Positions 2,983 through 54,436 of a DNA stretch of 64,000 nucleotides are shown here, one piece after another. Position 1 is the stretch's first letter. Each line of letters begins with the position of its first letter. Position numbers and translations under genes: made by a program. This DNA is from Utricularia gibba (taxonomy: Eukaryota; Streptophyta; Magnoliopsida; Lamiales; Lentibulariaceae), in NCBI GenBank assembly GCA_002189035.1, contig NEEC01000015.1:1922001-1986000 (forward strand), written 5' to 3'. The notes beneath the pieces were generated by a model. That model was given only the letters and a program-made list of their open reading frames with translations, ran no database searches and was not told the DNA's origin.

Positions 2983-5900
2983 ATGGGGGAGAGCAGGCTT
3001 TGTGCACCTAACGCTCGGCTGGGTTCGTTTTGTGCTTTCTTGCTATCTTCCGTTCCTCATTTCTTCTAATGATGTTAGTTTACGGTTGCGGATGCTGTAG
3101 ATGTTGAGCAGATATTAGTGGAAGCGCAGCATCGCTGGCTTCGCCCTGTTGAGATTTGTGAGATTCTTCACAATTATAGGAATTACCGTCTAACCAAGGA
3201 GCCTCCGAATAGACCACCGAGTAAGATCTATTATTCTGAAAAATTTTTTGTTGTTGAGCATATCGGAACTGGTGCTGGTACAAAACGTTTGTTAAGTGAA
3301 GAGAGTGACGATGATTTACGTACATCTTTTAGGTGGCTCGCTCTTTCTGTTTGATCGAAAGGTGGTGCGCTATTTCCGAAATGACGGCCATAACTGGAGG
3401 AAGAAGAAGGATGGGAAAACTGTGAAGGAAGCACATGAACGACTCAAGGTGGATATTATTCAGCACCTTTTGCGAGATCGTACTGCTCGCCGTGTTTATA
3501 GAATTCTTACGAGGATGCCATCTTTCAGGTTGGAAGTGTGGATGTTCTGCACTGCTACTATGCTCATGGAGCGGAGCAGGAAAATTTTCGCAGGCGTAGC
3601 TACTGGTTGCTTGAAGAGTACGAACTAAAACGCTTGTTACTCTGCTGCAGTCTATAGGATTGATACCTTCAATTTTCGAAGGTTATCTGTTTTCATGGCA
3701 TGTTTAATCTATCTGAAGAATTATGTTTTCTCCAGGGAACTCTCTCATATTGTTTTTGTACACTATCTGGAAGTGAAGGTAATGATATAAATTCTTCTCA
3801 TTTATTTTTCAGCATCTGCTACTATGTCCGATTGTTGTATCCGAAACAATATATTTGTGAGGTTTAACTTTAAGAATTAGAATAATTTGAAAAATTTGAG
3901 TCTGAGATCTCTTTGGTCTGTGACCCTAATTTGCTGATCCTCGGTTGTTCATATTTCCTTGATGGTTAGCAGCTTACTCTTTCCAAATTTTATGGTTTGA
4001 CCTTTCATAGGGGAACAAAGAATCATGGTTTACAAGCAAGAATTCTTATAATTCACAAACTGAAGAATATGGGTACAACAACCACGAGGTGGTCAGTTCA
4101 TCAACATCTACATTTCAACCATTTTATCACAAGGGATGTTCACAAGTTTCTGATACAACCACTTTTAATGGCACTCCAGCTTCTGAATGGGAAGATGCCG
4201 AATCAGGTATTTTTCTAGACAGTTCAACATTTCACTGTTAATCTGTTGATGTGCTTAAAGTTTGATGTGATCTATCTTTCATTCTTCAAATGTGATAATG
4301 ACTTTCATTTGATGTTTCCAACATTGTTGACTCTTCAGAATACAGAAACTCTTCAAGTCCTAGTATCCACAGTAACGTTGATAGACAACCACTGATAAAG
4401 ATTGGAGTTGGCTCTGTTCCTTACCCTACTGCCCTTATGTCAAGTAATGTGCTAAAAGCCCAGTTATATATCCACGTGTTCGTTTTGTTTCTCATCTATA
4501 GTATGGCTCGTATGATCATCTTCTCTGATCCATTATTTGTGATAATATTCAGATGGAAACTATCAAGGACCGTTTTCAGCTAATTCTTCTTTGAATTTGA
4601 GATCACCTTCTCACGGAGGAAGTCATCAAAATCATGGGGCGCAGACTTGGCAGAACCTTGTTCAAAGAAACAAAGCTGGTTATCAATCTGATAGCTCACT
4701 GAAATTACCTCCTACCCAGTTAAGTGCATTAAGTACCATTCATGGCATGGTAATGAACTTCTGGATCATATTGTTTCTGGGATTACAAAGAAAAACACGA
4801 GCTCTTCAGATCATGTCAATGGCTTGGAAGATATCCAGGTATTAGGTGAAATCCCCTCATGGAAAAAAATGATTGTTGTATATTTCTTTTGATGCAGATT
4901 TAATTACATTTCATCTTGTTGATTACAAAAGTGTATTTTATTATAACGTGCATAGAAATTCCTGATTTTGAACGTTGTGCAGGTTTCTGATGATCATGCA
5001 CAACGCATAGAAAAATGTTCTGAAGATGAGAAGTCAGATAGGGTCATTAATTCCTTCCATGTTGACCATTCATCATTCAGGAAACCTTTATTCGACATTT
5101 GCCCTGAATTGAAAGCTGCAAGTGAACTAGACTTGGATGAGTTCATTGGGATAATCAATCCATGTGTGACTGACCAAGGATCTAACCCTATTCAGCTTGA
5201 ATTGGAGTTGCAAGCTCTGATAGCTGAAGGCGGTTCCAGAAATCATGTTCTGACAACACTGAGAGTGTAGAGATTGGTAAAAATTACACAGCATTGAGAA
5301 AACCTCTATTGAAGGGTATTCATGATGGTCTGCAGAAGGTAGATAGTTTTGATCGCTGGATGAGCAAAGAGCTTGGGGATGTTGCTGAACCAGCCAGTCA
5401 CCCCACTTCTGAGACATGCTGGGACAATGTTGGTGAAGATGGTGATTCTGGTATTCCTGTTCAAGTACCCGTAGAACAACTCTTTAGCATTATTGACTTC
5501 TCCCCAAATTGGGCATATACAGATTCCGGTGTTAAGGTTTGTCAATTGACATCTTTGAGCAATCTAAAAGTATTTATCTACGTTTTTTATATCAAAAGAG
5601 ATTATTGATACCATGGTTTTCTATGACGCTAGGTGCTTATTATGGGAAAATTTTTAAGGAGCTCAGAGGAGGTGAGAAAGCACAAGTGGGCCTGCATGTT
5701 TGGTGAACATGAAGTACCTGCTGAAATCATATCAGGTGGTGTTCTTAGGTGTCACACACCCTTGCACGCAAATGGACGAGTTCCGTTTTACATAACATGT
5801 TCCAACAGGTTGGCATGCAGTGAGGTAAGAGAATTTGAATTCCGCCCGAATGTTGAGAATGCTGGATGCACACATCTTGATGAAACTACCCTTCACATGA

Positions 5901-7407
5901 GATTCGGAAAGTTGTTGTCTCTAGGATCCAGCAGTTCACTAACTTATGTGCAGAGTTGTCCACTTGAAAGCTCAGACTTATGCAGCAAAATTATTGCATT
6001 GCTGCAAGACGACAAGGAGTGGGAAATAATGTTAAACTTTACCAACCAAGATGAGCAGAGTGGTAAGGATCAGTTACTACAGAAGCTTTTAAAAGAAAAG
6101 CTGCAAGTTTGGCTTATACAGAGGATTTCTGAAGGTGGGAATGGTGCTAGTGTGTTAGATAAAGGTGGCCAAGGTGTACTTCATTTTGCATCAGCTTTAG
6201 GCTATCAATGGGCTATAGTCCCCACGATCGCGGCTGGAGTTTGTGTTGACTTTCGCGATGTAAATGGATGGACTGCACTTCACTGGGCAGCATTTTATGG
6301 TAGAGAGCGTATGGTGGCCCTTCTCATCTCTCTTGGAGCTGATCCAGGAAAAGTTACTCATCCCACAGCCAAGACCCCTGGAAAAACTCCTGCAGATCTT
6401 GCCTCAAGTAACGGCCACAAAGGCATCGCCGGCTATCTGGCTGAATCAGCACTGAGCAGTCACGTATCTTTGCTCGAGTTGGATTCTGATAGAAGTTCAA
6501 GGGCAAGAGAAACAACATCCAAGTGGTTAGTAGCTCCAGTTAGTGATGGCCACGCAGCTCATGGGTCATTGAAGGAGTCATGGCTGCTGTGCACAATGCA
6601 ACACAAGCTGCTGCTCGCATCCATCAAGTCTACAGAATTCAGTCATTTCAAAGAAAGCAGCTTAGGGAGTATGGCGACACCCAACATGGTGATCGAGCTC
6701 TCTCTCTTCTGGCTTTCAAACCCAAGAAGACAGTTCAAAATTTTGAGCCTGTTCATGCTGCTGCCACAAGGATACAGAACAAGTTCCGTGGTTGGAAGGG
6801 CAGAAAAGACTTCCTCCTCACTCGGCAGCGCATAATCAAAATTCAGGTACAATTTCAACAATCGCCACATTGTTAGTAAATGTTTCACCTTCGCAAATAA
6901 CAACTTTTTAGTTTCTTTTTTTGAAACCAAAAGGCTGTTGTTAGAGGACACCAGGTAAGGAAACGCTACAGAAAGATAATCTGGTCCGTAAGATTTCTGG
7001 ACCGGGTCATCCTACGGTGGAGACGCAAGGGAAGAGGGCTGAGTGTATTCAAGCCTTCCAGTGATGACACAGAGGACGACTATGATTTCCTGAACGATGG
7101 TAAACGCCAGTCAGAAGTGAGACTGCAGAAAGCTGTTGCCAGAGTAAAATCAATGGTTCGATACCCCGAAGCCCGTGATCAATACGGCCGGTTGCTCAAT
7201 GCAGTCGCGGAAATGCAGGGAATGATGGTAAGATTCCCCTTTCTTATCCAGATCAAACCATTTTGTGCCAGAAGTCTCTTAGCCATCCTCCTCCTTCTCA
7301 TGCAGGCTGCTTACGAACAGATCCTCCACACCCCAGAAGCCGATCTCGATGACGACCTGATCCGTCTGGATGCCCTGCTTGAGGATGAGACTCTCATGGA
7401 GGTGTAA
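2983..7407 (+). CDS. CAMTA: Calmodulin-binding transcription activator (CAMTA2/3-like), with three apparent 1-base frame breaks
   Basis: Nuclear Ca2+/calmodulin-responsive transcription factor. Twelve exons: 2983-3022, 3101-3220, 3333-3448, 3529-3617, 3736-3778, 4011-4206, 4339-4443, 4553-4838, 4983-5536, 5633-6846, 6934-7227, 7306-7407. The CG-1 DNA-binding domain fills exons 1-5 (VEQILVEAQHRW, DGHNWRKKKDGKTVKEAHE, VGSVDVLHCYYAHG, HIVFVHY). A TIG fold spans exons 9-10 (IDFSPNWAYTDSGVK, HKWACMFGEHEVPAE). Ankyrin repeats lie near 6160-6450 (NGWTALHWAAFYGRE). IQ motifs start near 6610 and continue into exon 11 (TQAAARIHQVYR, ATRIQNKFRGWKGRK, VVRGHQVRKRY). The frame changes without an intron at about 4717-4731, 5228-5252 and 6573-6580; each needs one extra base. 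With these allowed the length is about 1053 residues, normal for CAMTA2/3. CAMTA3 relatives repress salicylate immunity and act in cold response (family knowledge). Possible pseudogene, but sequence error is likelier. Confidence 0.9.
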
Positions 7408-7991
7408 GGACACCCCCTCTTAGTGAACTAAGTACTCCAGTCACAAAGCTCTAAAGGTACAAAACTAAGCCAAGTGTATAAATGCAAGGAGGATTGTAGC
7501 CAAGCCATGGATAAATAGATGTAAAGGTGTGTAGTAGTTAAATGTAGCAGTCACAAAATCAGGCCTAATGCGGTTAGCCACTGTGTTTACTTACTGCTTG
7601 CTTAGAAAGAAGAGTTGGCCATTTAACTGATGGATAATATATTGGAACGGTTAAAATTGAAAGCATAATTATAATATAAAGTTTACAATACATATAAAAA
7701 ATTAAATTTTGGTTCTTTAAAAAATTAATACGAAATAATTGTAATTTTAACCGACATGGACTGTAAACGTAATAAAAAAATTAAGGAATAAAAAAACATA
7801 GAGGTTTTTCCTTAATTTTTCAGGTTTCATCAACTAACTACTAGTATCAATGATCATCTTATAGTTATTAAATATTATTTAACATAATTAATATTTCAAA
7901 TTGTTTATTATTTTACGATCCAAAAAAAAAATAGGGGGAGAATCTTATCTTGAATCGTGAAAGCAGTGCTGGTGTGGGAAAGCAAGGCAAG
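7408..7991. other. AT-rich spacer
   Basis: 584 bases between the CAMTA stop and the L29 start. The middle (7660-7930) is very A/T-rich with runs of A. No gene or repeat with clear ends was seen. Confidence 0.45.
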
Positions 7992-9337
7992 ATGACGATG
8001 AGTCTCTCCGTTTCAAGCTTCGTCTTCCCGAAATCAAGCTCTTGGAAAACCTCGGCGTCTTCGTCTGCTTTCCATGGAGTCAAAATGGGGCATTTGTGCC
8101 TCTCCGGCCGCGCTTACACATCTCTGGCAACTGGTCGTTCTTCGTCAGTGGTGATGATGGCAAAGAGAGAGGAGGAACTGAAGGAAATCCGGGCGAAATC
8201 AACCGAAGAGATAAATGAAGAAATTGTGGATCTTAAAGGGGAACTTTTTATGCTTCGTCTCCAGCGTTCTGCTCGGAATGATTTCAAACCCAGCGAATTT
8301 CACCGGATGCGCAAAAGGGTAACCCTCTTTTCGTTTCAAACTTGCGAAATCCCTACCTTTTCTACTTGGTTCTGAGTTTTATTTTTCTCCGTTTGTGCTT
8401 CATTGCCCTTAATCTGAAATCCGGATCAATTGCTTCTTGTGGGTGTAGCTTATTTTAGATTTGTTTGATTCTGGATTCAGTTGTGTGTGAGATTCATCCT
8501 TAAGTTTCCTGTTTTTGGCTGATTCAGGCTATGAAATGGGATGAAATAGAAACAAATTTAAAGGTTAATGGTGATAGAAAAAGTCATTCTGAAACCAGAA
8601 TTTCTACTATTTTCAAAGGGACTGTTCATCGAGTTTTTGGGATACCAGAATGTTTATTGTTATGCTTGAAGGACGTACTTGTGAAACCATGGTTTCTCCT
8701 TTTTAGGATGAGGAGCCTCCATTAGCTATGAGACAGTAGTTTCTTCTTTTAATATGGGAAAAGGCAATTGAATACAGTCAAATGAGACTCGTTTGCACTA
8801 TTTTAGTGTGCTTCCCATTTGAATGCATGCCAATTCCACAATTTCCCATTAATCTTTAACAGTGAAAGCTCTGTATATGAATTGCCTGCATTCCCTGGAA
8901 AAGCGAATGAAACCTTGAGATTGTTTCAACCTCAATCCACCGACCGCTTAGCTTAGGAAAACTGGATTACATCCTCCTTGCTCATCTGTTCATATGAAAA
9001 GCACATCATCATCAAGATCATTTGTAGAGGTTCTTCCTTCAGCTTATTTTCGGTGCAGCTTTGCCCCTAGTCAGATGCCGTCGAACTGCAAAACCCGTAA
9101 TCCGATTTATCTTGCTCTTACACACCCTTGACTGCTCATGTTTCGGTTGCTTGGTGCGTTTTGTGACAGGTTGCTCGAATGATGACTGTGAAGAGGGAGA
9201 GAGAACTGGAAGAAGGCGTTGGCCGGAGATTATCCCGAAAACTAGACAAGCAGTGGAAGAAGAGTATCGTTCCTAGACCTCCACCGTCGCTGTTGAAACT
9301 CCGGGAAGAAGAAGCCGCTGCTGAGGCCAAGGAATAA
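7992..9337 (+). CDS. RPL29: 50S ribosomal protein L29, chloroplastic
   Basis: Large-subunit protein (uL29) of the plastid ribosome, nuclear encoded. Two exons, 7992-8318 and 9170-9337, joined in phase 0 across an 851-base intron, give 164 residues. The first about 55 residues are Ser-rich and low in acidic residues, a typical transit peptide, ending near SSSVVMMA. The mature domain follows: KREEELKEIRAKSTEEINEEIVDLKGEL..LRLQ, then ARNDFKPSEFHRMRKRVARMMTVKRERE. The Lys/Arg-rich C-terminal extension LSRKLDKQWKKSIVPRPPP is typical of the plastid form. ATG 7992 is chosen over the next in-frame ATG at 7998; either is possible. The intron shows no convincing second gene. Confidence 0.92.
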
Positions 9338-9625
9338 GATGCCTGTGGAGCAGCAAATTCAGTGACTGGTGGCCTTCTTTTTGTTTTGTAATTTTTAGTA
9401 ATCTGGAATATTAGAAATGGGACCCCCACATTTTACTTTATTTTATATTGGGTCGCGGGTGTTAAAAATTAATTTTTTAACCCGTCGCATTCTGCACGTG
9501 TCAATTTCTGATTCAATGGGAAGTCAACATTCCCTGGTCTACTCCCAGTGATAAAACAAATCCCCTTTGCCTGATCTTCGTTCTTGCGAAGTCTGTTCGC
9601 CCAAATCCATTTACCGGTGATACTT

Positions 9626-10624
9626 ATGGCGTTTGTGGGCGATTCACGTCGCAACCCAGCCGCCATAAAGCCATCGGAATCTTCCTCCTCTGGCCCAGCG
9701 GGGACGCGGTGGTGCGTGGATCCCCGAACCCCCTTGATGAATCTTTCTGCGGTTCAAGCTCGAATGGACTCGCTCCAAAAATTCCTCTCCGATTCCGTTA
9801 ACAGCAACACCTTGCTTGGTCAGCAACAGATGGACACCGTGGCTTCTGAGATTTCATCGGCGATTCAGGAGATAATCGTCAATGGCGCTGCGCTCCTGTC
9901 TTCCAATTACTCAATTTCGCCATCGCAACCCAATCTGAATCCGGAACTGGGCCAGAGAAAAGTGGATTCGAGTCCAAAAATTCCGATCTCTGTAGATGAT
10001 TTGGAAGACTGTGAGATAATCGAGATGGATGCGGTTGAGTTGCTAGCGGAGAATGTCCATTTTTGTGAAATTTGTGGTAAAGGTTTCAAACGTGACGCGA
10101 ATCTGAGGATGCATATGAGGGCCCATGGTAACCAGTTCAAGACGCCGGAAGCGCTGGGGAAACCCAGAAAAAATGAAGATTCCAACAGCGGTAGAATCCG
10201 ATTTTCGTGCCCTTTCGTGGGCTGCAACAGAAACAAGCAGCACAAGAAATTCAGACCCTTGAAAACCGCGGTTTGCGTGAAGAATCACTTCAAGAGAAGC
10301 CATTGCCCCAAGACGCATTCTTGCACACGATGCAACAAGAAGAGCTTTTCAGTTATCGCGGATTTGAAAAGCCATTTGAAGCTCTGTGGCGAGAGCAAAT
10401 GGAGATGTTCATGTGGTACCAGCTTTTCAAGGAAGGATAAGCTATTTGGACATATGGCGCTTTTTGAAGGCCATATGCCGGCGGTGGGGGAGGAGCCGGA
10501 GAAAGGCAAGGCAGCGGCGGCGACCGCCCATGATAATGACTACTTTGATGACGGACTGTTTGATGGTTTGGATCCTATTGAAGACTACTGCTTTCAGCAT
10601 CTGATCAATTCACCTGATACTTGA
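9626..10624 (+). CDS. STOP1/STOP2-like C2H2 zinc-finger transcription factor
   Basis: Intronless, 332 residues from ATG 9626. Four zinc fingers of the STOP1 type fill residues about 145-300: HFCEICGKGFKRDANLRMHM; a longer second finger FSCPFVGCNRNKQHKKF followed by LKTAVCVKNHFKRSHC; CTRCNKKSFSVIADLKSHL; and CSCGTSFSRKDKLFGHMALF. STOP1 relatives control tolerance to protons and aluminium in roots, including malate-transporter expression (family knowledge). The protein is shorter than Arabidopsis STOP1, with a compact N-terminus, so it is closer to STOP2 or a STOP1-like paralogue. The stop lies only 124 bases from the stop of the convergent receptor kinase, so transcripts probably overlap at their 3' ends. 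Confidence 0.88.
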   Translation: MAFVGDSRRNPAAIKPSESSSSGPAGTRWCVDPRTPLMNLSAVQARMDSLQKFLSDSVNSNTLLGQQQMDTVASEISSAIQEIIVNGAALLSSNYSISPSQPNLNPELGQRKVDSSPKIPISVDDLEDCEIIEMDAVELLAENVHFCEICGKGFKRDANLRMHMRAHGNQFKTPEALGKPRKNEDSNSGRIRFSCPFVGCNRNKQHKKFRPLKTAVCVKNHFKRSHCPKTHSCTRCNKKSFSVIADLKSHLKLCGESKWRCSCGTSFSRKDKLFGHMALFEGHMPAVGEEPEKGKAAAATAHDNDYFDDGLFDGLDPIEDYCFQHLINSPDT

Positions 10625-10748
10625 TAGTTCAGGTTGGGTTCTTCTTCCTCTTCATTTCATGTACTGCACTTGTTGGTTACAAGCCTGCGATGATTTGTGT
10701 GAACAAAGTATTCAAATAATGAATAGAGTTGCAGATTCCCCGTTCAGA

Positions 10749-13641
10749 TCAACGACCTCCGGACAACTGAATGGCGTCCTGGTTACAAATGGAGTCCTCT
10801 GGCCACTCCATTCTTCTCTGCAACCGCTCAAACTCCAGCTTCCTTGTGATCTCCTTCTGCTCCCAGGCTTCCCATTTCTGAGCCAGGCCTTCACCCTCCA
10901 GCATCTGCACAACTTCCGACATTGCCGGCCGATCCTCCGGTGAGGACTGCGTGCATAACAGGGATATCTGAACCATCACCTCCACTTCTTGCATCTCGAA
11001 GTTGCTACCTAAGTTCATGTCCACTATGTTCTCCAGTTTCCTCTGACTTTGAAGCTTTTTCACCTTCAAGATCATGTAGGAAGAATTTCAACACACCAAT
11101 TTCTCATTGTGCTGGGCAAGATGTCACATAAGAATCTGGACAGGAGGTTTAAAGGTGGTCGATAGCTCACAAGATCAAGGAGTAAGACATCATCTTCTTC
11201 TTCTTCCATGCGTGAGAAATCTATGGCTCGTTGGCCAGTTACTAGCTCCAACAGCATTATCCCATAACCAAAAACATCGGTCTTCTCAGATGATTTTCCT
11301 GTAGACAAGTATTCAGGAGCTATATGGCCCAGAGTTCCACGAACTACAGTCGTTACGTTAGTTTTCCTCACATCGACAAGCTTGGCCAACCCAAAATCGC
11401 CGACGACGGCCTCAAACTTGTCGTTAAGCAGCACATTTGCGGCTTTGACATCACGATGAATGATCTTGGGATTGCAGTGTTCGTGAAGGTACTCCAAACC
11501 ACGAGCTGTTCCCAGAGCTGCTTTCTTCCTGGTTGACCAATCCAACGCAGGCTGCCCTGGTTTCAGATCTGGCAGAAAGTGCAAGACAGGGGAAATATGT
11601 GATCAGGGAGGGGGCTGATGTGAGAGCAATAGGAACTAGTACCTCGTAGACGAGAGGCAACGCTCAAATTATGCATGAAGGGGTAAACCAAGAGGCGTTC
11701 TGTAGGTGTGGTGCAAAAGCCGATAAGCCGTAGAAGATTCCGGTGAACTGCAACGCTTATCATCTCCACCTCACGTTGGAATGCGGCATCACTCGCAGGA
11801 CTCTTGAAATCGGTCAAGCGTTTCACGGCAATCATTGTGTTATCAGCAAGAACTCCTTTATAGACTTTTCCAAATCCTCCCTGCCCAAGAACGTTTTCTT
11901 CACTAAAGTTGTCTGTAGCGAGCTGTAGTTCTATCCAAGAGAATCTCTTCAGCTGGCCAAATCCAAAGCTCTGGGCTTCACCTGAACATCAGAAACGCAA
12001 ACGAAATAGAAGATTTAAATCAACGTACAAGTTGGCATGAAGAAAGGGAATGAAGTGCTGTAAGAGCAAGTCAAACAACAACCTGCAACATCAACAAAAA
12101 CATCAAGTTTACATCGCCTGCTATGAGGGAGCCGCAGAAACAAATAGAGAATGCACCCAAGAAGCAAAATGAGAAAGAATGATGCCACAACAGTTCCAGT
12201 TGCAATGCCCGCCCAAGATTTTCGATGTTCTGTATAGATAACACGAATCAGCATTTTCTACTCTCATATCAACCTAAGAAACATTGAAATTATGTAATTA
12301 GTAACTACCTAGCTTTTCAGATGCACAAAGATGAGGAGAGCGGATGCCACAGTTCAAGTGGTTTCCTGTAAAACTGATGTGTGGAACTTAAAGGGACTAC
12401 AGTACATATACATGTAGCACGAAACTGTGAAGAATGTTAAATCTGAGCTCATACTTGTGTTTTGGAACCTTAAATAACTTATCTGGTATATTCCCAGTAA
12501 GACGATTCGAGGCAAGCTGACTGCACAGAAAGAAAGAAACAATGATGAATGAAGTGGATAGTTCAATAAACATGAGCAGGTGATGGTTGATATGCATCCA
12601 ACCATCAAGAAACTGCCATTTTATGGGGTGACTGAGAGATACAGTATAGAGTCAGCTTACACTTCTGTCAAGTTCAAAAGATTTGAAAGTGAGTCGGGAA
12701 TCTCCCCAGAAAGATGGTTGTGGCTCAAGATGCTGCTTAGACGAAAAAGAATCTCAGTCGAGAAGAAAATGGAGACATGCTAACAGAGCAACTACTTACA
12801 CGATGCTTACAGAAACGTTAGCTTCTCGAGATTGCCCAATGAAGATGGAATCTCTCCAGATAATTGATTATTCTCAAGATTTAGCATTGTCAAGCTAGTT
12901 ATATTCCCAAATGTATCAGGTATCTGGCCGTGGATGCTGTTCCCTTGCAGGTCTCTGAATTATAAACTAATTATCAAGAACTCACGCAAGGGAGTATCAA
13001 TCCATGAATTTCTACAGATGTCCAAGGATAAGGGAAACTGCGGGCACGTGAGTGTTTGTACATACAATGCAGTTAGCTTCTTCAAAATCCCAATTCCTGG
13101 TGACAGGACACCATTAAATCCCATGTTGGGCAATATCCTTGACAATCAAAACCAACCACTAATTGAGTTCATCGAGTATTAATGCCTGATAATGTAGCAA
13201 AAACGCTTGGAACAGCATGAAATCACTCTCAGGGGGAACTGGAAATACAAAAGTTAAAAGGCATACACTGATGTTACATTGTTAGTATCGTCACATGCAA
13301 CCTTAGACCAAGTGCAAGGACTGATTTGATAAGGATTCCAATCATGAAGCTGATTTTCAGATGCATTCAACGCACGTCTCAGCGCATACAAAGCTTCTCC
13401 TGTTACAGTAATTAATATTAGCATATGCCTAGATCCATCCGTCAGTTAGCTAAGCATTTTCACAAACAGCTGCCAGCAATCAACACCAGAGAAGATGATA
13501 AAGCAAAAATGGAACCTTGCTCATCGGCAGCCACAAGAACAGAAAAATATACCAACGCTAAGATTCCAAGCAGCACCCCCTGCTGGGAGATAACCCCTCG
13601 AGTTTTGCCGCCGAGATCTCGATTCCGGAGAAACAAAGCAT
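10749..13641 (-). CDS. LRR receptor-like kinase, subfamily II (At5g10290/At5g65240-like), with a frame break in exon 1
   Basis: Plasma-membrane receptor kinase. Exons in transcript order: 13641-13516, 13399-13267, 13137-13066, 12954-12811, 12732-12661, 12520-12455, 12373-12309, 12229-12083, 11981-11643, 11568-11171, 11063-10749. A signal peptide ([16 protein letters not shown]) precedes the LRR N-cap ([19 protein letters not shown]) and about five LRRs on 72- or 144-base exons, as in SERK relatives. The membrane span is [20 protein letters not shown]. The kinase has [16 protein letters not shown], an RD-type [14 protein letters not shown] and APEY. It ends in AIQLSGGR, shared with At5g10290-type kinases. 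Total 625 residues if one base is restored in the G5 run (C5 at 13576-13580 on +); as written, ATG 13641 runs into a stop after 27 codons. Ligand unknown. Confidence 0.88.
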
Positions 13642-14422
13642 TCCTGGAACTAAAACTCCGTTAGTCGAAACAGACCTTTCCCAGTATTCGCAAGAAGAAA
13701 TGGACATCATAGTGGCCGAGAAACAACGCAGTCCCCAAACCGCGAATCCCTCAGTCGCAACCGACGTATCTTCTTCCAAAAAACATGGTTTTCCCTTACT
13801 GGACACATCATATTTCCAACCATGCTCCATTTTCTTGATTCTTCTAGCATTTATTGCCACTTCCCCGGAGTCGAGAAATTTCATGATGTTCAGCGTAGAA
13901 CGGGAACTCTTGTTCCGTTTCTCTTCACCCCACATACACAACCCCACCAAAATCTTGTTCTGCCACGGATTCTGAACCCAGAAAAGCTCATTGTTAGAGG
14001 TGTAAAAATGGAAGATCACTTCAGAAAAGAAGCCAAATTCTCCCTATTCAATTCCATGATAATGGAACCCGAATCCGACGCATGGTAAGTACATTCCTTC
14101 AGCATTCACACCCATAGACACAAAAGTGAGGTATCGGGCACCACCCCCACCGGAGATGGGGGCATTTTGGGACATTTTCTTATTCTAAAGCAACCTATAA
14201 GAAACCGACAAGCATTCAGGGAATTTGTGATTGATAGAGACATCTCACCAATCCTTAGCTGATGTATTTTCTGGTGCGAGAAAAAAGCTGACGATGTGTT
14301 TTTGTGCCGTCAGCCAGGCGATTGTTCTTTTCCAATTCCGTAGCCAACTCATTGGAAATGGGAATCATAACCTGAAATTGCAGTCTGACGGGCGGCCGCC
14401 ACGAGTAATGTGCTAGTAGAAT
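13642..14422. promoter_or_regulatory. Divergent intergenic region between the LRR kinase and the peroxidase
   Basis: 781 bases separate the two start codons, which point away from each other, so both promoters must lie here. On the minus strand the frame of ATG 13641 stays open back to an ATG at 14019, adding up to 126 codons; that part resembles no kinase N-terminus and is more likely 5' leader. No clear TATA box was identified for either gene. Confidence 0.45.
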
Positions 14423-15568
<1,146 letters not shown>

Positions 15569-15708
15569 GTTTGGTCTGTAATAATGGAGACAATGCACAC
15601 CAAAAAAACACGTAGAATATCAACGTATGTCGTTTGAAAGAAGCAGTGTAATTTATGCATGGGATGGTGAATCCGCAGTCAAGAAAATGTTGGCTTTACA
15701 CCTGTGAT

Positions 15709-15876
15709 TTAAGGGTATTGCCAAGAAGCAGCAACTACGACCTGGAGGCGGCCAATGAGAGTGCGGTACTCTGCGGGATCGGCCTGGGCCTTGGCAACTC
15801 TCTTCTTTTTCTCCGCTACTCTGGCTAGCTCTTTCTTTGCAATGCCAATGGGGTCACCGGCCTTCGGATCCACCGG
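15709..15876 (-). other. Unrecognised conserved-looking small ORF/exon
   Basis: Read on the minus strand after a good acceptor (TTGTTGCAG at 15885-15877), the frame gives about 55 residues ending at TAA 15709-15711: VDPKAGDPIGIAKKEL, then ARVAEKKKRVAKAQADPAEY and RTLIGRLQVVVAASWQYP. The composition (charged helix, few rare codons) looks like a real protein C-terminus. No in-frame ATG precedes it; the same frame meets TAG at 15891-15889 and another TAG further upstream. A possible leader exon (ATG near 16013, MTGN..) and a U-rich 80-base intron can be seen, but the phases do not join. It may be the last exon of an unrecognised small gene, a gene broken by an indel, or a pseudogene. I do not know the family. 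Confidence 0.35.
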
Positions 15877-16254
15877 CTGCAACAAGTTCTACCGCATTCG
15901 ATCAATAAACTGCACGAAGGTGTATAAAAAATCAGCAAACTTCAATCGCCGTTGAGAGGAAATCTAGGAAGAAGGACTGAACTCGTACAGTTTCCGGTCA
16001 TCGTCAATCTCCACACTTCGTCGGATTAGAAATCTCGAAGTTTAAGAAGAAAAGCAATTGAACGTGTTCAACGCAGAGCTCTAGGGCACAAAACAATTCT
16101 AGAAGAAGCCAAAAACCATTAACCATGAAAATGGGCCTTCATTGCGAAAGGAGATTCTAATATGGGCCTAGAGCGGTAGAGCCCATTCACAGCACGCTCA
16201 TAATGCGGCACGTGAAAAATGAAAACCGAAAACCAGAGTGCCTTCTTTACGTCG

Positions 16255-19844: not shown

Positions 19845-19852
19845 AATGGCAC

Positions 19853-20345: not shown

Positions 20346-20353
20346 AATGGCAC

Positions 20354-27251: not shown

Positions 27252-29746
<2,495 letters not shown>

Positions 29747-36681: not shown

Positions 36682-38512
<1,831 letters not shown>

Positions 38513-41419: not shown

Positions 41420-41429
41420 AATAGGACGC

Positions 41430-41640
41430 TGATGATAGATTCTCAAGGACGGAAATCCGGGGATGGATGAAGTTAAAGAAGCTCTTGATACCTTTGGCAA
41501 GAACAGAGACGCGTTCATTGATACAGGGGAGTTGCAGCAGATCCGCTGCAGGATGGGATCCAGAGGAGGAGTTGGGATAGATGATTGACTGCAGGAGGAC
41601 GACGACTCGGGTGATCGACGACAACGATGGGGCACAGGCC
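41430..41640 (+). pseudogene. Fragment of a calmodulin-like (CML45/46-type) EF-hand gene
   Basis: The + frame at 41465-41570 reads DEVKEALDTFGKNRDAFIDTGELQ in outline: DEVKEALDTFGKN, then RDAFIDTGELQQI. It matches the first C-terminal EF-hand of CML45/46-like proteins (VxEAFDxFDxNxDGFIDxxELQ). The loop has lost its first Asp (GKN for DKN) and the central Gly (DAF for DGF). After TGA at 41586 another frame gives CRRTTTRVIDDNDGAQ, matching the start of the next EF-hand. Stops, shifts and lost Ca2+ ligands mean a non-functional remnant. No intact N-terminus was found. Confidence 0.6.
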
Positions 41641-43991: not shown

Positions 43992-45012
43992 ATGGACGGA
44001 GAGCGCGACGAAGCGTTGATTCTGCCGCCAGGGTTCAGGTTTCATCCCACGGATGAAGAGTTAATTACTCACTACTTGTCTCCGAAGCTTGTTGACAGCA
44101 ATTTCAGCAGCATAGTTATGGGAGATGTGGATTTGAACAAAGTTGAGCCTTGGGATTTGCCCTGTAAGTTATTTGTTTCTGTGTTTGCATGTAGTAAGGT
44201 GTTCCATGGTGGGACTGACTGAATGATGAATTTTTCAGGGAAGGCGAAAATAGGGGAAAAGGAATGGTACTTTTTCTGCATCAAAGACAGGAAATACCCC
44301 ACTGGTTCGAGAACGAACAGAGCAACTGAAGCTGGGTACTGGAAAGCAACTGGAAAAGATAAGGAAATTTTTCGGGGGAAAGTGTTGGTGGGAATGAAGA
44401 AAACTCTTGTTTTCTACAAAGGAAGAGCACCTAGAGGAGAAAAGACTAACTGGGTTATGCATGAATACAGAGTAGAAAGCATGGATTCTTCCCACAATCC
44501 CTCCTCTAGAGTTGCTAACAAGGTAAAAAGAGCATCTTTTTTCTCCCCCCCGTTTTTGTTTTGTTCTTCTTAGGATTGACATAGTTTGTTCGACTCGACA
44601 GAGTGAATGGGTGATTAATAGAGTGTTTAAGAAGGGCTCAAATGGGAAGAAAGTACACATCTCTGGTTTATCTGAATCACCGTCATCTTGCTCCTCCGTC
44701 CAGCCGCCGTTTATCGACTTACCCTCCACCGCCGTAGCCGAGGTGACCAGCTTCTCCAACTCTCAGGAAGAGAGGGAAATGGGCGGCGAACTCAGCCCAT
44801 TCGAGGGTCATTCGAGTTGCAGGGAATCCGTTTTCCCGCAAGATCAGTCGTTCCTCACTCTGTTGCTGGAAAACTACCGCTCCTACGCGAGACAACACGG
44901 TGGGGAGGACGGATTCTTGCCTGAAAGTGATCTGTCCGCAGCCTTTGCAGATGGATTCCGGCCTTGGTATGAACAAGAATACCTGATCACCGACTGGATC
45001 ACTAACCGTTAA
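43992..45012 (+). CDS. NAC domain transcription factor (NAC79/NAC100/CUC2 group)
   Basis: Three exons, 43992-44163, 44239-44522 and 44602-45012, at the two standard NAC intron positions; 288 residues. The start ATG gives [19 protein letters not shown]; an upstream in-frame GTG is ignored. NAC subdomains A-E are complete: [84 protein letters not shown] and WVMHEYRVE. This sequence type belongs to the NAM/CUC and ORE1/NAC79/NAC100 clade, many of whose members are cleaved under miR164 guidance. Here the equivalent site is degenerate (see separate entry). The tail is acidic and ends [15 protein letters not shown]. Confidence 0.93.
44738..44758 (+). promoter_or_regulatory. Degenerate miR164 target-like site in the NAC coding region
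   Basis: CCGAGGTGACCAGCTTCTCCA encodes EVTSFS(N) where relatives encode EHVPCFS. Compared with the perfect complement of miR164, the 9 bases pairing with the microRNA 5' end are intact, but about 6 of 21 positions mismatch, including the one opposite microRNA position 10. Cleavage normally needs pairing at positions 10-11, so slicing is unlikely. The comparison uses the known miR164 sequence from memory. Confidence 0.5.
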
Positions 45013-45825
45013 GTTTCTAGTACTCTGTAAATGGTGAATACATACATACACACACACATCCACAAGCTTCAACATTGCTGTCAAGCAACAAAAGCACAGT
45101 AGGGTTTGATTGGCTTTGGCCTTTGTATTGTATATTTTGTGATTAGTGACTAATGTGGCTAAGCCTTTATATTTTACAACTGCTATTACTTGCAATTATA
45201 AATTAATAAAAATAATAATAAAACAGCAACATCGGTTTGGCTGATTCGGGTGGACCGGTGTGAAACCGGTCCAGCGGTTCTTCCGTGCCTGAATTCCTTC
45301 GCTAAAGTGGATTCTCTCAACCAAATCCATCCTCAGAATCTTGTAAAGCTACGTCCATCCTGATTTCAACTACTCTCCTTTTCTGAGTGCCGCTTCTTTA
45401 TTGTAATTTCCTGGCGCCAGCTTCAATTGTCTTCAATTTTTGAATTCTGTGTATGGGTTTTAATATTTTTGTGCCTGCATACAGGAAGGATTGTCTACGG
45501 TTGGCAAAAGCAAGGTGAAACGCCGTAGATGACCGATTTACGACAAGATAGGGAAAAAGTGTAAGTGCTCAACTATGACATGGGCTTTTCGTGTTTACTT
45601 TCTTGGTTTTGTACTCGGAGATCAATTCCTACTTCTGTTTTTTTTTTTTTTTCCTAAATTGGTGCCTGGTGTTAATCCTGAAAATAGGATAGTTTAACAT
45701 GCTGATTTTTTTGAAATACACGATCTTGCATTGTATGGGTTGCAATGGTTGCTTGTGGTATGCGAGCTACTTCGGATTTAACATAACAACTTGTAAAGCC
45801 TTTTCTCCAGAATTCTATAGCAATG
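45013..45825. other. Spacer and leader of the phosphatidate cytidylyltransferase gene
   Basis: 813 bases. A CA-rich stretch (45044-45063) follows the NAC stop. Downstream the DNA shows exon/intron-like texture (CATACAG at 45479-45485, a run of T near 45640), suggesting a leader intron for the next gene; its borders are not certain. Confidence 0.4.
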
Positions 45826-48648
45826 ATGCAGAGGGATAGTGGACCAGTTCGGCAACGCAGGCGTAGAGCCTCAAATGAGGTCCGTTTGGTTTCGATATAT
45901 GAATTAAAACTAGGCCTTTTTGAAAATGAAGTGTATATTGTAATCGCGTGTTGCTTCATTTTGAAGCTCTATAAAGCATGTTTTAATCAGGAACTCTTTG
46001 ATTTTGTTAGAATCCAAGGGCAGGTATGCTGAGTTGTGATAAAGTTGAGTGTTGTTTTATGTTGGAGAAGACAAGTCATTTTACTTATCGTAGACCATGT
46101 AAAAGCAAATTACTCTTGTTTTGAAAAATTAACAAAATTTTCTATGCTCCAGACTCCGAATGAAGTTGGAGACACAAACGGGGTTCATTTGCTCGTTAAT
46201 GACAGTGGGAAGTACAAGTCGATGCTAGTGCGTGCATATTCAACATTTTGGATGATTCTAGGGTTCGCCTTGACTATATACATGGGTCACCTTTATATAT
46301 GGGCAATGGTGATTGTGGTTCAAATTTTTATGGCAAAGGAACTGTTTACTTTACGAAGGAAATCTCATGAAGAGAACAGGCTTCCAGGATTTTGGCTGCT
46401 GAATTGGTGGGCAACTTAGTTCCTCTCTGGAATTTTAAGTTAATCATGTTCTCATTTTTTACTGTTGTGTATTTTCAAAATATTATCTTCTTTTGGTTTG
46501 CCAATGGATCCTCAATCATAGCATGCCTATATATTAACATGTTCTCAGGTACCTGGCTTGCTGACATAGCTTTTTGTGGAATCAGTGTTCTAATTCTGGA
46601 ATAATTGTGCAGCACTTTATGCTTTTTTGTTTTTTCATATGTTAACCGAAAGGTTCTCCGTCTAAGTGTTTTTCCTAATTGTGAATCTGCTGCTTTTTTT
46701 TTTCCCCTTCAGGTACTTTTTCTTCACAGCCATGCTATTTGTCTATGGACGTATTCTCAACCAGCAGCTTGTGAATACTGTAACAACAGGGAATCATTGG
46801 TACAAACTTGTTGGCATGATCAGCAAATATCATATGGTTACGTGCTACTTCCTGTACATTGCAGGTGCTTGAAAATAATGCAGTTCTTTGCGTTTTCTTA
46901 TATTTTTTTTTCTGTAATATCCAAGTAAGGAAATACATACTTGATTATCAGCAGGCCTTTGGTAATTTAGAAGGGCTGATATATCTCAGCAATAAAATCT
47001 GGAAAAAGAATGAATATTGTCTGTTTTTTTGGATACAGGTTTTATTTGGTTTATTCTCTCGTTGAAGAAGAAGAGGTACAAGTATCAGTTTGGCCAATAT
47101 GCATGGACACACATGATACTGATTGTGGTGTTTGCTCAGTCATCTTTTACAGTGGCGATTATTTTCGAGGGAATTTTTTGGTAAACATTGTGTTTATTCT
47201 GTTTTGGGCTTGCTTTTGGTAATTTAAAAGCTATTCCTTAAAAAGTTTATTCTTTTTTGAATGTTCTGTTTTTTTATGACTTCGAGGTCCTACTTACCTG
47301 TGCTGTTTAAATGAATAGTTGTATTGTTGTTTCAAATATGAGTTTGGCAACAATGCAGGTTCCTTCTTCCTGCATCACTAATAGTCATCAATGACATCGC
47401 GGCTTATATTTTTGGATTCTTCTTTGGGAGAACCCCTTTGATCAAGCTCTCACCAAAGAAAACATGGGAAGGCTTTATTGGAGCATCTGGCACTTCTATA
47501 ATCTCTGCCTTTGTGGTGAGCAGTTTGTCTAGTTTTTGTCAGTTGAGGTCGGAATACTGGATGTTCATAGATGAGGATGTTGTTCAACTCTCAAAAAGTG
47601 TTTGCGCATCATTTGAACGAATAGTTATTTTCTTGAGCATTAAAATGGATCCATCAGATCTTTAATAACGGGATCATTCAGTGTGCTGCATTTCTTTCTT
47701 CTATATTTATAAAAGCTCAGGTGGATTGCTGTAACACTTTTTTCTTATCATTCGCAGCTTGCCAACTTTTTGGGTCAATTTCAGTGGCTAACTTGTCCTA
47801 GGAGGGTAAGTGATGGCTTGCTCCAAATTTTCTCTCAACATGTTTTTATTCTTTAAAGTTGATTGGAATGCACTCCTTTGTAGGATTTATCAACTGGCTG
47901 GCTTCATTGTGATCCTGGCCCGTTGTTTAAGCCTGAAACATTCACAGTCCCAGAGTGGTTTCCTAAATCGGCAAGTTCCTGACCTATTTCCTTAATTTAG
48001 AAGCATCTCCGTATATCTGATTCTGAAGTATGTTTTGTAGTTTCATGGGAGCAAAATCTCTATCTTGCCTGTTCAGTGGCATGCCCTATGGCTCGGTCTT
48101 TTTGCTTCGATCATAGCACCGTTCGGAGGATTTTTTGCTAGTGGCTTTAAGAGGGCTTTCAAGATCAAGGTTTTGACACCACCATCCTCATGACTGTTTT
48201 TCTTTTTCTTTTTACTTAAATATCATTTCTAGTATCCATAACATCTGTACAGGATTTCGGCGATAGCATTCCTGGGCATGGTGGAATGACCGATAGAATG
48301 GATTGCCAGGTAAATACCATCCTTGCATCATCAGTTGCCTACTCTGCTCATCTTGTCATGTATTTCATTGATACTAATCTGCAGATGGTGATGGCCGTTT
48401 TCGCATACATTTATCATCAGTCGTTTGTCGTGCCACAGTCCTTATCGACCGAGACCATCATGGACCTGGTAGATAACCTCACAATTCGCAAAATCACCAA
48501 GCAACTTATCTCGTATGCAAATCCACCTATCTAGTTCTCATTTTTTGTGTAGATTATATCAAGTCTCACGATGGAGGAGCTACAAGCGCTGTACACGAAA
48601 GTGGGTCGTATAATCATGGAGAAGCAGTTGAGATCGCCTACAAGCTGA
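45826..48648 (+). CDS. CDS1: Phosphatidate cytidylyltransferase (CDP-diacylglycerol synthase)
   Basis: Makes CDP-diacylglycerol from phosphatidate and CTP, the precursor of phosphatidylinositol and phosphatidylglycerol, in the ER. Eleven exons: 45826-45879, 46153-46406, 46713-46864, 47039-47180, 47359-47515, 47758-47805, 47884-47970, 48041-48169, 48253-48309, 48385-48468, 48553-48648; 419 residues, the size of Arabidopsis CDS1. Several membrane spans are present ([33 protein letters not shown]). Family blocks: [61 protein letters not shown] and the signature [19 protein letters not shown]. The exon 7/8 intron begins with GC (AAATCG|GCAAGT); nearby GT choices break frame. An ATG one codon earlier (45823) is equally possible. 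Confidence 0.94.
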
Positions 48649-49210
48649 AGGAAACAGTCAATGGCAGTACCAATAAATCTTACAGCCCATTGCCTTGTTT
48701 TTTCTCTCCTTCCATCTCCCTCTTGCGCCTGTACAGTAACATCGCACCACTAACTCTGATCACAGCTTTTCACTGATCCAACATTTCTGATACCCGTTGC
48801 TTCTGTTGTAGAGGGATCTTACGACCTTTATACAAGATACTTGAAGCAATACACATTGAATGAAGAACGAGTTCCTTGATAGGAACAACTGATTTACATG
48901 AAATTGCACATCTTGCTTTATAAAATAGTTGTTGAAAAACGCCATGCAAACTGTAGCACAGGTTCACCATGTGTAAGAAAAAAAATACAGTGACAACATT
49001 ACAACATCACTTGGACATTCTGCCTACTTGAGACAAGCTACGTACAAGGTGATAGGTATACAAATTGAAAATTATTCACATTTCTAATTCATGAAACTGA
49101 CAGCACCATATCATATATTTCTTTTTCCCCTGTTTCACTTCTTGAGTTCCAGTATTTTTCTCCCTTGGGTTTGAAATCGGCAAAGAAGCAGCTTCTACAA
49201 ACTATAGGTA
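48649..49210. other. Convergent 3' spacer between CDS1 and WRKY
   Basis: 562 bases with the two 3' untranslated regions. Short ORFs only; nothing recognised. Confidence 0.4.
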
Positions 49211-50976
49211 TCATGCTATTACCTCATCTCCCTTGAGGTGTAGAGTATCTGGTTTTTGTTCCGGGATCACAGGATGAGATTGCGATGCTCCGCTTCCTGG
49301 CATTGTTTTGAATGGCTGCGAACTTGTGCTTGCCGTGGGATGAGGATGGCTGCCGCTTCTCCCCAGGGGGAGGTCATGGGTGTGCTTTCCCTCGTATGTA
49401 GTTATGACAGATTTGGGGTCAGTTGAGGCTCGCTCAACATGCTTGCGAACTTTGCAGCCCGCATACGTGCATCTGTAGTAGCTCCTGCAAGGAGTTGGTT
49501 TATTTTGACTTCAGAATCCATGTTCATTCTTTTACATTAATGAATCCTCACCTCGGATAAGGATTGCCCTTCACTACTTTCTGCCCATATTTTCTCCATC
49601 TGTATCCATCATCCAAAAGATCAACTTCACTTCTTGTCTTCAGGACGATCTTTGATTCCATTACAGTTTGATGTGCCTGTCCGATTTCTGTGCTCCTATT
49701 TCATATAAAAGAAACCATTATACAGCAGCCAGGGATGGCAACAAGATGCAGATAACAGCTAACCTTCTTTTGGCACTAGGCATATCTTCCTCTTTCTCCA
49801 CAGATGCAGCATTGTTTTGAAAATCACTAGGCATGGTGCCATACTCAAATGGCTCTTGAACAGTTTCTTGGAAGCTTGAACCCTCAGATGGGAAGCTTAC
49901 AACTCCTTGAAGTCTGTTGCCTTCAGTATGCTCTTGTGATGGTAAAATAGGCCTCTGCTGGGAGACTCCTGTTCCATCCATGGAGCCATGCTCCCTCACC
50001 CTTTTACTAGGCTGAGGCAGATCATGGTTATGCTGCCCCTTGTACGTAATCTCGGATATTCGACCATCTATGGATCGTTCTACTTTCTTCCTGACAGGAC
50101 AATCTGGGTGTGTGCATTTATAATAACTCCTTGGGCACTCACTAGCCTTGACTTGTTTCTGACCATATTTTCTCCAGTTATACCCATCATTGACAGGTTT
50201 ATCACCAACAGAAGAAGCAGTTTTATGATCAGACGACGATACTAAGCTCTGTTCCTGAGGAAAAGATGCTAAATTCTCAAGAGGCGTATTTGTTGGGTTG
50301 GCTTCAGATGCTTCCACAGAAGAGGGCAACTCTTGCTGCTGAACTTCGGATTGCATCTGTTTGAATGACTGAGAAAGAGCTGCCTGTGCAGTAACATGAG
50401 CCAGAGCTTGCTGGTGTGACATTCCAAAGGGGCTCTGCTTCAAAGCAAATGCAATTCTCAATCTCAATACTTATGATACCAAACTTTATTCTAAGAAACC
50501 CTATTTATAAAATGGCCAGATCAATTTCCCAAAATTCGATTTGCAGACAGCTCAAAATCATACCTGAAGTGGGGACAAGAGCACAGGGGAGTTGAGCAAA
50601 CCAGAGGGGCTCATTCCCAGCAATAGAGGACTAAGGTTCTCCGGCAGCTGGCGTGGCGGAGCAACTACCAAACTAGGTGGGCGGTTCCGTTGAAGCCCAC
50701 GTTCCTTATCTTTGTCGAAATCATCCTGGGAAAACCCACCGGCAAAAGGAGGCGGCTTGGGGCAGCGAGCGGCGAAGCCATAGCTCCGACCAAAAGCTGG
50801 GAGAAGGAGAAGTGAGTTTGGTCGGGAAACAGAGAGGAAACCAAGGTCATGGGGCCTGGGCTGAAGCTGCCGTTTGCGAAAAACATTTCCATGGAGGCAC
50901 GTGGCGGCAGATGGATCTTCGGCTTGGGCTTGGAAGCTGCTGAAGCTGAAGAAGCATCATCCTCCTGGTGACCCAT
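49211..50976 (-). CDS. WRKY transcription factor, group I (WRKY3/4-like), with one apparent 1-base deletion in exon 1
   Basis: Four exons in transcript order: 50976-50564, 50434-49764, 49695-49552, 49484-49211. Two WRKY domains: the N-terminal one [20 protein letters not shown] ... GQHNHD in exon 2, and the C-terminal one [21 protein letters not shown] ... GKHTHDLP, split by the conserved intron after PYP-R. Both carry WRKYGQK and C2H2 ligands. The N-terminus has the group I blocks [29 protein letters not shown] and [15 protein letters not shown], plus [13 protein letters not shown]. After MASPLAA the frame shifts at a CCCC run (GGGG on + near 50764). In the next frame it continues [20 protein letters not shown] to a good donor. 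One more C gives 500 residues. WRKY3/4 act in defence against necrotrophs (family knowledge). Confidence 0.93.
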
Positions 50977-51337
50977 TTCTGGAATCCTTTTAACAACTTC
51001 GCGTCCAATTTCTCCGATTGCAATCAAAAGCAGATGCTCTTTATGCACGCCAATCCACTTATTTTAGACGTGTAAAGAGCGGAGGGAGATGGGCCACTGC
51101 GACCGAATTTAACAGCGAGGTGGAGAAACGAAGTACATCACATTTAAAGGTAACTAACAGGCGACAACATTAAAGTTCGGAAACAACATTGAAATTCAAA
51201 GTTCCAAAATGCAATCCTCAGTGCTATTGCATCATTTAAATATTCCGAAACGCTAGAAATTGTGGTTGCTCATGCTCTGTATGCATAAACTCAGCAGTGG
51301 AACGCGAAAAACAGCAGCAAGTCTTGTGTGCCAAAAG
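50977..51337. other. Promoter-side spacer of the WRKY gene
   Basis: About 360 bases between the WRKY start and the tRNA. On the minus strand the WRKY frame is open back to an ATG at 51048 (24 extra codons), probably leader. Nothing else recognised. Confidence 0.35.
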
Positions 51338-51409
51338 AGGTCCCACCGGGATTCGAACCCAGGTCGCTGGATTCAAAGTCCAGAGTGCTAACCACTACAC
51401 CATGGAACC
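51338..51409 (-). tRNA. tRNA-Gln (anticodon UUG)
   Basis: A 72-base cloverleaf on the minus strand. The acceptor arms GGTTCCA and TGGGACC pair, with discriminator T. The D arm is in TGGTGTAGTGGTTAGCA, the anticodon arm is CTGGA-CTTTGAA-TCCAG with anticodon TTG, and the T arm is CTGGG-TTCGAAT-CCCGG with one wobble-type mismatch. Box A (TGGTGTAGTGG) and box B (GGTTCGAATCC) promoter elements are intact. No intron. It sits between the WRKY promoter and the 3' end of the GAUT gene. Confidence 0.95.
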
Positions 51410-51967
51410 GTGAATATGAGGGGCCATTGGACGATCATTAATCAACAAACATTAAGAATTACCAATCTCGAAGAAAGTAAAAGAAATTTTATTTATCATC
51501 ACACAAAGCCCAACTCAATGTAAGAAAGAATATAAATGTGTGTGACAATTGACAAGGATAGGGAGGGGTAGTATAGGTAATTCCCTAACTCAACCGTAAG
51601 GACTAACCAAAAGAATCAACCCCGGAAAGTTGGTGAACCATCCACAAAAAAACACAAGTAAAACAAATGAGGATGAGCAGAAGATGGATTGGGAGTCATG
51701 GTGCTTCTGGGCAACACCAGCAATTCAATGGAAAGCTCCAAATCACTTCAGATGGGAAGAGGGCAATCCGCCTTTATCAACATGTGAACAAATCTGCTAC
51801 TTTACACAGAGTAATAGAACGCATTCCCTTCTGACTGACTGGTCTGTATCAAGGAAGCTGTGGCAATGGAGGTGAACTTTCAACTGCAAAAAGATGTCCC
51901 CCATTCTGCGCATCCCCGCCGACAAAAAATTCCGTACCACTTGAGCGAGATGGGCTTTGGAGATCAA
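51410..51967. other. Spacer between the tRNA and the GAUT stop
   Basis: 558 bases; open frames here on + run antisense into the GAUT gene and show no family likeness. The right half should be the GAUT 3' untranslated region. Confidence 0.35.
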
Positions 51968-54436
51968 CTACTCCAGTACGTGACAATTCCTGATGAACTC
52001 GTTGGAGTAGTTAACGTACTTGGTCCAGAACGGTCGGAGATGCTCGAACCCGATTTCCAACCATGGCTTGGACTGGCCGTTGTAGTGAATTACAGCGGCC
52101 CTCTTCACGTTTTCTACATTGGTATTGTTCTGGTATCCCAATCCAAGCATGTGCCAGGAAGGATCGATAGGTTGGACATGGCCCCTGAATGCGACTAGAG
52201 CGGGGGGAGTGTTCCTAGTTTCCACAGCGTCAGGTTAGATTTCAGATTCTGCAAGAGTGAGGAAAAGATGCAAAAAATGTTATCACAGCACAGCAGATGA
52301 GTGAAACGGTGTCATGGGAAATGTGAAAGATGGACATGGTTTACCTCCTTGACCCATGTATGATATGTACTAATGATGTTTGTTTTCCTCCAGGCGTGCA
52401 AGTCAAATATATTCATCCCATATGCCCATGCACAATCATCTGGATTCAAATTCTTTGCCACACGAGGATTCGAGAAGTTGAAATAGTTTCTGAAGTGCTT
52501 CGACATAACCCATTTATCTTCACCTCTACAGGTTTCAACAGCGCCATTAACCTTTCCATTGAGATCAATGTCCCAGAGAGGACTCAAATCGCGCTGAATT
52601 ACAACATCATCATCCAAGAAAACCACCTTGTCAAGGTCTGGAAACAGCTGCATAATGCAAAGGTTTGTTTTAGTCTCACCAAGAACAATAAGTCGATTCT
52701 AGAAAATGCTTTGAATACCAGCTTTAATCCAGAAAAAAACAGAAGCACGTATGTTAATTAAGATAAACATACACCACACAGAAGGCTTTAAAGGGCTAGG
52801 GAAAGTGCTTACTGAAGATTATACAAAATGAAAACAAATTTCCCATACGGTAATAAATCAGATAATATAATTAGAACTCACATTACTTCATAGGATGCTT
52901 AGAGAAATTTTTCCTTTGAGATTACATGTCTCTTTTGAAACATCCAAGAAGAAAATGGAAACGAGAATTCATCCAATTATACAACACAACTTGTAAGACA
53001 AAAAAGGCACAAGCAAGTCAACCCCCCAACATGAAAACCTGTATACTCAATTAAAAAAAAAAAAGAATCACCTCTGGAAGGTATATACGAAGGTGATTGA
53101 GCAAAGAGATGTATTTCGGACTTCTAGCCTGTAATTTAGAAGCAAATGTCCGAGGAGTTGTTACACTAAGATTGGCACCAGCAATGTGATTTCCATGGTA
53201 GTAATTCCGAATAGCATAGTGGCTTTCCACGGCCTCAAGAACTGGGACATTCTCTCTGGTCAACCAATCAAATTGATGTACACCTTTCACTTCAACTATG
53301 GCTGGAGAAACCGAGTTTAATGCAAACCATGCATGCATGGCTGCATAGGTTTTCTTATCAGTTATGACATGGAAAACAATTTTCTCGGGATATTGAGATG
53401 ATTGAACAGCAGATGCAACAACAACAGAGGCTGCCAAAACATTGTCGGTGGACACGACAAGGTGATGGTAGGAATTATCAGAAAGCAAAGGAAGCAACTC
53501 TGGTGAAGGTAATTGCCGCCGTGCATATGCATTGGAAGAATACTCATCAGTCAGCCTCAATGAAAGGCAGTGAATGGATTTAGGAAGTGCACTTGCAGCA
53601 AAATGTTTATTCATCAGCTCAGCAAATTTGGCTTCTCGGATCTCGCCTTCAAACTTCTCCATCTAAAAGAAAAAAACAACATGGTAAAAAAAGGATGGAA
53701 AATAGCCCATATCCAAAGCGAGTCATAAATTAAATCTCTCGTTAATAAATTTATCAAACAAGATAGCATGAATTCGTCAAGAAATATACCATTCCCTTCA
53801 AAATGAAAGCAAACTCCCTTGAGCTGTACTTGTTTTCCTTCATTTCAGAAACAAGCTGATGAAAGGAGTTCGGGATCTTTAGATTTTCTGGTACTTTCTC
53901 AGAGTTAACTTGATTTAGTATTTTGGAAAAGTCCTTGACCAGCCTCTGTAAAAGTAGGACAAATAAATGGTTAAAAAATGGGCTCCTTACAAGCGAAACT
54001 GTCTCATAGTCCAACCAGATAAACTAAAGAAAACAAATACCCAGAATCGTCGCTTCTACCAAGAAGTTTGGGCCCCAATCGTCGTCCTAAGCAATCTGAA
54101 GACATGGAATCAGACCAAATTAGGCATAAGACCAGTGAAATAATTGGTCCCCTACGGCGAAGGAAAAATGATTATAAGCAGGTACAAGGGGAGAAAACAA
54201 TTACCGAAGGATGAACACTTGTTGACGCCTTCAAGTGTGATAAGCGCGGTAAGAATGAACACAAATGGCAACAAAAAGGAAAGTATCAAAATGGTGTGAA
54301 AAAATGCGCGATAAGAAAGCTGTCGAGCTGCGAGTTTGATCTTCATCAAGTCTCCACCATATCCATTACCATTTCCTCCACTGTTGCTGGAAGATATAGT
54401 TATACTTCTCATGCTAGGCGAGAAGCGCAGCTGCAT
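51968..54436 (-). CDS. GAUT: GAUT13/14-type galacturonosyltransferase (GT8), with one clear and one possible 1-base deletion
   Basis: Golgi type II membrane glycosyltransferase for pectin synthesis. Exons in transcript order: 54436-54205, 54095-54041, 53943-53790, 53662-53072, 52647-52345, 52248-51968. A cytosolic tail (MQLRFSPSMRSITISSS) precedes the membrane anchor (FFHTILILSFLLPFVFILTA). The GT8 catalytic part has VFHVITDKKTYAAMHAWFAL, the DxD motif KVVFLDDDVVIQRDLSPLW, NGAVETCRGEDKWVMSK and YGMNIFDLHAWRKTN. The end, FEHLRPFWTKYVNYSNEFIR, fits GAUT13/14. In exon 6 the frame shifts within GTLPP/ALVAFRGH at a C6 run (G6 at 52202-52207 on +); one more C restores it. At exon 2/3 either an AGAG|G acceptor loses one Arg (SG-LVKDF) or a G is missing from the GGG before the donor. 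About 538 residues. Confidence 0.93.

Follow-up and report, generated by a model that had tools for sequence, protein, structure and literature searches.

The window analysed here, a 64,000-nucleotide stretch of Utricularia gibba DNA (G000:C412:1922001-1986000 of a 100.09-Mb, 516-contig assembly), contains conserved genes whose reading frame changes inside an exon, which raises the question of whether these bases are absent from the plant or only from its assembled sequence. A first-pass annotation had listed eight same-sign breaks in six genes. We translated the eight sites in all frames and delimited each frame change with stop codons, from the last one in the downstream frame to the first one in the upstream frame. 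The open frame proved to be offset by -1 (modulo 3) at all eight sites, and homology or exon phase backs seven of them (three in CAMTA and one each in NDUFAF7, alpha-tubulin, WRKY and GAUT). The eighth, in an LRR kinase, was not confirmed. The sites are as follows:

4695..4846, plus strand: CAMTA break 1, -1 anywhere within an interval bounded by stops (earlier placed at 4725)
5228..5271, plus strand: CAMTA break 2, -1 within a 43-bp stop-bounded interval (earlier placed at 5240)
6547..6600, plus strand: CAMTA break 3, -1 at about 6577, just 5' of the IQ region and in no homopolymer
13557..13660, minus strand: exon 1 of the LRR receptor kinase, where a break had been claimed (13576-13580); a frame offset is seen, without confirmation from homology
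29479..29639, minus strand: NDUFAF7 exon 1, -1, the frame going from 0 to 2 inside a single exon, probably at a G4 run near 29610
38228..38240, plus strand: alpha-tubulin, a C4 run (38232-38235) lacking one base, flanked by NYQ and PTVVPGG
50664..50956, minus strand: first exon of a group I WRKY gene, -1, frame 2 to 1, probably at a C4 run (earlier placed at 50764)
52194..52234, minus strand: GAUT (GT8), a C6 run one base short at the GTLPP/ALVAF junction, within a 40-bp interval

Protein-to-DNA alignments were made with our own aligner, which permits frameshifts and GT-AG introns and penalises an insertion no more than a deletion, so that a bias toward -1 is not expected. The breaks in alpha-tubulin, GAUT, CAMTA-2 and CAMTA-3 are well localised. 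Those in CAMTA-1, NDUFAF7 and WRKY are real but coarsely placed, their earlier coordinates being plausible guesses. It had also been claimed that exactly one base is missing each time. Residue-exact alignment demonstrates this for tubulin, GAUT and CAMTA-3, the latter two compared with paralogues of the same genome, and at the other sites the change is -1 modulo 3.

In alpha-tubulin, the sequence reads TAC CAA CCC CTA CCG where Y-Q-P-P-T is conserved, and the coding sequence 3' of the break differs from three intact paralogues by 33-39 synonymous and only 0-1 non-synonymous substitutions. The GAUT ohnologue on contig C1 has one -1 break, at the same C run as the window gene, and the ohnologues show a Ka of 0.009-0.035 against a Ks of 0.35-0.47 on either side of it. 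Selection on the downstream frame is thus unrelaxed in both genes, where Ka past the break lies far below Ks. These downstream frames have been fully constrained to the present and are therefore not those of dead genes.

The three CAMTA breaks are supported in different ways. At the first, the phase of the upstream exon demands one frame and the downstream splice phase the other. Exon phases likewise require both frames at the second, where the frame after the break matches CAMTA paralogues (VDSFTRWMAKELGD...FSITFFSPHWTYSD). The third was resolved by frameshift-aware alignment against the paralogue L063 as a single -1 shift between KES and MAAVHNATQAAARIHQ, its position near 6577 being set by paralogues that read KDSLAAVCNATQAAARIHQ. 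A second CAMTA gene elsewhere in the genome (L061, G000:C2:5894700-5900100) has a -1 break of its own, before the ankyrin repeats. NDUFAF7 is single copy, with one locus in a genome-wide search. In the WRKY gene, the frame switch falls before RNRPPSLVV and the WRKY domain is intact downstream. Among the 20 long open reading frames scanned in the window, a Pfam domain lies within one open frame for a STOP2-like zinc finger, a peroxidase, an HD-Zip, two ZF-HD, a LOB and an M16 peptidase gene.

The same lesion recurs across the assembly. We surveyed tubulin and HSP70 exons from many contigs, 51.9 kb in total, and found four breaks among 18 functional tubulin genes (the window's included) and about eight among 18 HSP70 genes. 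These 12 breaks, approximately one per 4.3 kb, are all -1, with no +1 among them. Two beta-tubulins, L018 and L019, are both one base short at the same C run, and an actin gene on C1 has the same -1 frame offset in the search table. Altogether, about 20 of 20 homology-supported nuclear breaks share the -1 sign, which would occur by chance about twice in a million were both signs equally likely. Two further apparent HSP70 frameshifts (the second in L040 and the first in L042) proved false, as the BiP aligner seed held intron read-through, and another in L038 was left out for its closeness to an exon end.

One HSP70 break, on C304, is common to the near-identical contig C241 and adjoins a substitution, so that it may be a real mutation. 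C241 (31 kb) duplicates the HSP70 cluster of C304:2234-2246 kb at 99.5-99.8% identity (L036, L037, L048-L050), differs from it structurally by about 3.5 kb and is perhaps an alternative haplotype. The pair was tried as an independent re-consensus and set aside: it is too short and partly diverged, and it shows a few single-base indels that do not decide the matter.

The sequence around the breaks shows a clear preference. In the sampled exons, 4 of 36 G/C runs with a true length of at least 5 were broken, against none of 99 A/T runs of at least 5 (Fisher p = 0.004). Genome-wide, the depletion of long G/C runs is only slight at length 6. Five of the window's breaks had been assigned to G or C runs of 4-6 bases. 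The C4 of tubulin and the C6 of GAUT bear this out, the G4 of NDUFAF7 and the C4 of WRKY are probable placements, and CAMTA-3 lies outside any run. CAMTA-3 and several HSP70 breaks fall in runs of 3 or fewer, so that the error is enriched in runs and not confined to them.

Genuine decay in this genome looks different. One pseudogene of tubulin in this assembly, L027, carries seven frameshifts of mixed size, one stop and large gaps (80 gapped residues), and plastid-derived copies of atpA and atpB in the mitochondrial contig C515 differ from the plastid genes by indels of -1, -6, -1, -5, -5, +5 and +4. The breaks studied here, unlike those of L027, are accompanied by no stops or larger indels, and the combination of mixed lesions and relaxed constraint that marks a pseudogene was not found at them. 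About 14 kb of organelle genes (cox1, atpA, atpB, rbcL, rpoC1, rpoC2, part of rpoB and rps2) contained no break, as deep coverage would give; the contrast with nuclear genes is statistically weak, at about 0.05, and base composition confounds it.

The choice of organelle controls brought some side observations. A psaA/psaB match intended as a plastid control turned out to lie in C515, as a decayed copy of plastid origin, and plastid contig C516 was used instead; mitochondrial atp1 was likewise rejected, the C515 matches being the plastid-derived atpA and atpB copies. The plastid-derived sequence in C515 (267,500 bp; L058, L072, L073) includes a decayed psaA, a psaB with a full-length open frame of 744 codons and an rps14-like sequence, and its decayed atpA and atpB copies are 95-96% identical to the plastid genes. 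The mitochondrial cox1 (C515:183547-185854; L059, L060) has the tandem-cysteine motif LLLLCCSALVEVG, and its intron contains an in-frame ORF with LAGLIDADG-like motifs. The tandem-cysteine signature has been described for Utricularia and some Genlisea (PMC3141634).

Taken together, the same -1 losses occur throughout the assembly in genes that evolution has plainly kept intact, and they are therefore almost certainly consensus errors. We put the probability at about 95% that the frame breaks in the window are single-base deletions left over in a long-read consensus, most likely that of the PacBio RS/HGAP assembly of U. gibba. This was the cause proposed in the first-pass annotation, and it is upheld by the uniform sign of the breaks, by the rate in two unrelated housekeeping families, by the G/C-run bias and by the undiminished purifying selection. 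The pattern is what such errors lead one to expect: single-base and one-sided, assembly-wide whatever the gene's function, enriched in homopolymers and with no relaxation of selection downstream. The consensus step would under-count bases, most often in G/C runs and less often elsewhere, and with about one base missing in every 4 kb of nuclear exon, conserved genes would look frame-shifted. The frame changes, their sign and genome-wide frequency, the G/C-run bias and the continued constraint on the downstream frames are direct results, whereas the presence of the missing bases in the plant's DNA and their loss in the long-read consensus are inferred; the reading frames are presumably intact in the living plant. 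The U. gibba genome was assembled with HGAP at 88x, with a contig N50 of 3.4 Mb (PMC5793159), and difficulty with homopolymers has been documented for Quiver (PMC4853030). Some points count against consensus error: Quiver polishing at 88x would not be expected to leave as many as one break in about 4.3 kb, several breaks lie outside homopolymers, the HSP70 break common to C304 and C241 may be real, and the organelle contrast is weak. No new biology is needed or claimed.

Three other explanations have to be weighed. Some of the breaks could be mistakes in gene models (missed small introns, alternative starts or poorly conserved stretches) with no change of frame at all. The LRR kinase site invites this reading, as it lies 5' of the first conserved exon and of a signal-peptide-like segment, in a stretch that has no in-frame ATG and is unconserved in the nearest paralogues (L069-L071); an upstream coding exon is therefore equally possible there. 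The intervals of CAMTA-1, NDUFAF7 and WRKY, 150-290 bp wide, also leave room for it. Against it, an intron-aware aligner carries the residue-by-residue match of tubulin, GAUT and CAMTA-3 across the break with no intron, and the CAMTA-1 and CAMTA-2 exon phases need both frames. We regard such mistakes as an unlikely source of the breaks. It is less likely still, and in our judgement very improbable, that the breaks are real and very recent frame-shifting deletions, tolerated in a clonal plant with several ohnologues per gene. U. gibba is highly duplicated and substitution rates are raised in Lentibulariaceae, both of which speak for recent mutation, as does the HSP70 break common to two near-identical contigs. 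The raised-rate hypothesis for this family is discussed in PMC3141634. Real decay in this genome is mixed, whereas every break is -1, with no insertion among them; single-copy NDUFAF7 is affected; and lesions as dense as one in 4.3 kb of conserved exon would disable a large share of genes at once. The GAUT ohnologues share one broken C run, and so do L018 and L019, which argues further against independent recent mutations.

The DNA might also truly lack these bases. In that case the frame would be restored in thousands of genes, mainly at short G/C runs, by slippage during transcription or by programmed -1 frameshifting of the ribosome. The constant sign and the purifying selection on downstream frames would suit such a mechanism, as would the location of some sites in C runs of 4-6. 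No shared motif or slippery heptamer was found among the break contexts compared, however, and several sites lie outside runs; paralogues use other codons for the same residues and stay in frame; real pseudogenes coexist in the genome; and data of this type have a documented technical cause for such breaks. We know of no genome-wide recoding of this sort in plants, and we consider this explanation barely credible.

If consensus deletions extend to other genes at this density, about one in 4.3 kb of exon, roughly one in four average-length genes would, by extrapolation, look truncated or pseudogenised. Given this rate of missing bases, claims of gene loss, domain loss or dN/dS that draw on the gene models of this assembly need support from transcripts or short reads. 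We also asked if the truncated DCL3 published for U. gibba might be such an error and saw no sign of it, in view of the Dicer_dimer loci and of the transcripts and 5' RACE that PMC8333044 cites for the N-terminal loss. We found just three Dicer_dimer loci in the genome (C244:2027168, C3:1250835 and C255:2646411; L077-L079), which fits the published loss. As a separate observation on the assembly, five of about 22 contigs seen have lengths that are exact multiples of 2,500 (C1, 8,500,000; C2, 6,192,500; C409, 2,492,500; C505, 3,452,500; C515, 267,500), far above chance and probably a processing artefact.

The breaks can be set beside three known systems. Programmed ribosomal frameshifting, of which +1 shifts in Euplotes and -1 shifts in retroelements are examples, shares with them a constant direction and a conserved downstream frame, but the breaks have neither a common slippery motif nor a termination-site context, and their paralogues are intact in frame. 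Unitary pseudogenes and recent gene losses resemble them in presenting conserved genes that are frame-shifted; here, by contrast, the sign is constant, ohnologue pairs are broken at the same run, and mixed indels, stops and relaxed selection are absent. Compared with the residual indels known from PacBio RS/HGAP-Quiver and Nanopore assemblies, the breaks are unusual in their high rate (one in about 4.3 kb of exon), in affecting G/C runs far more than A/T runs and in lying to a sizeable part outside runs, but like those indels, which truncate predicted proteins, they are single-base, one-sided, homopolymer-enriched and spread over conserved genes.
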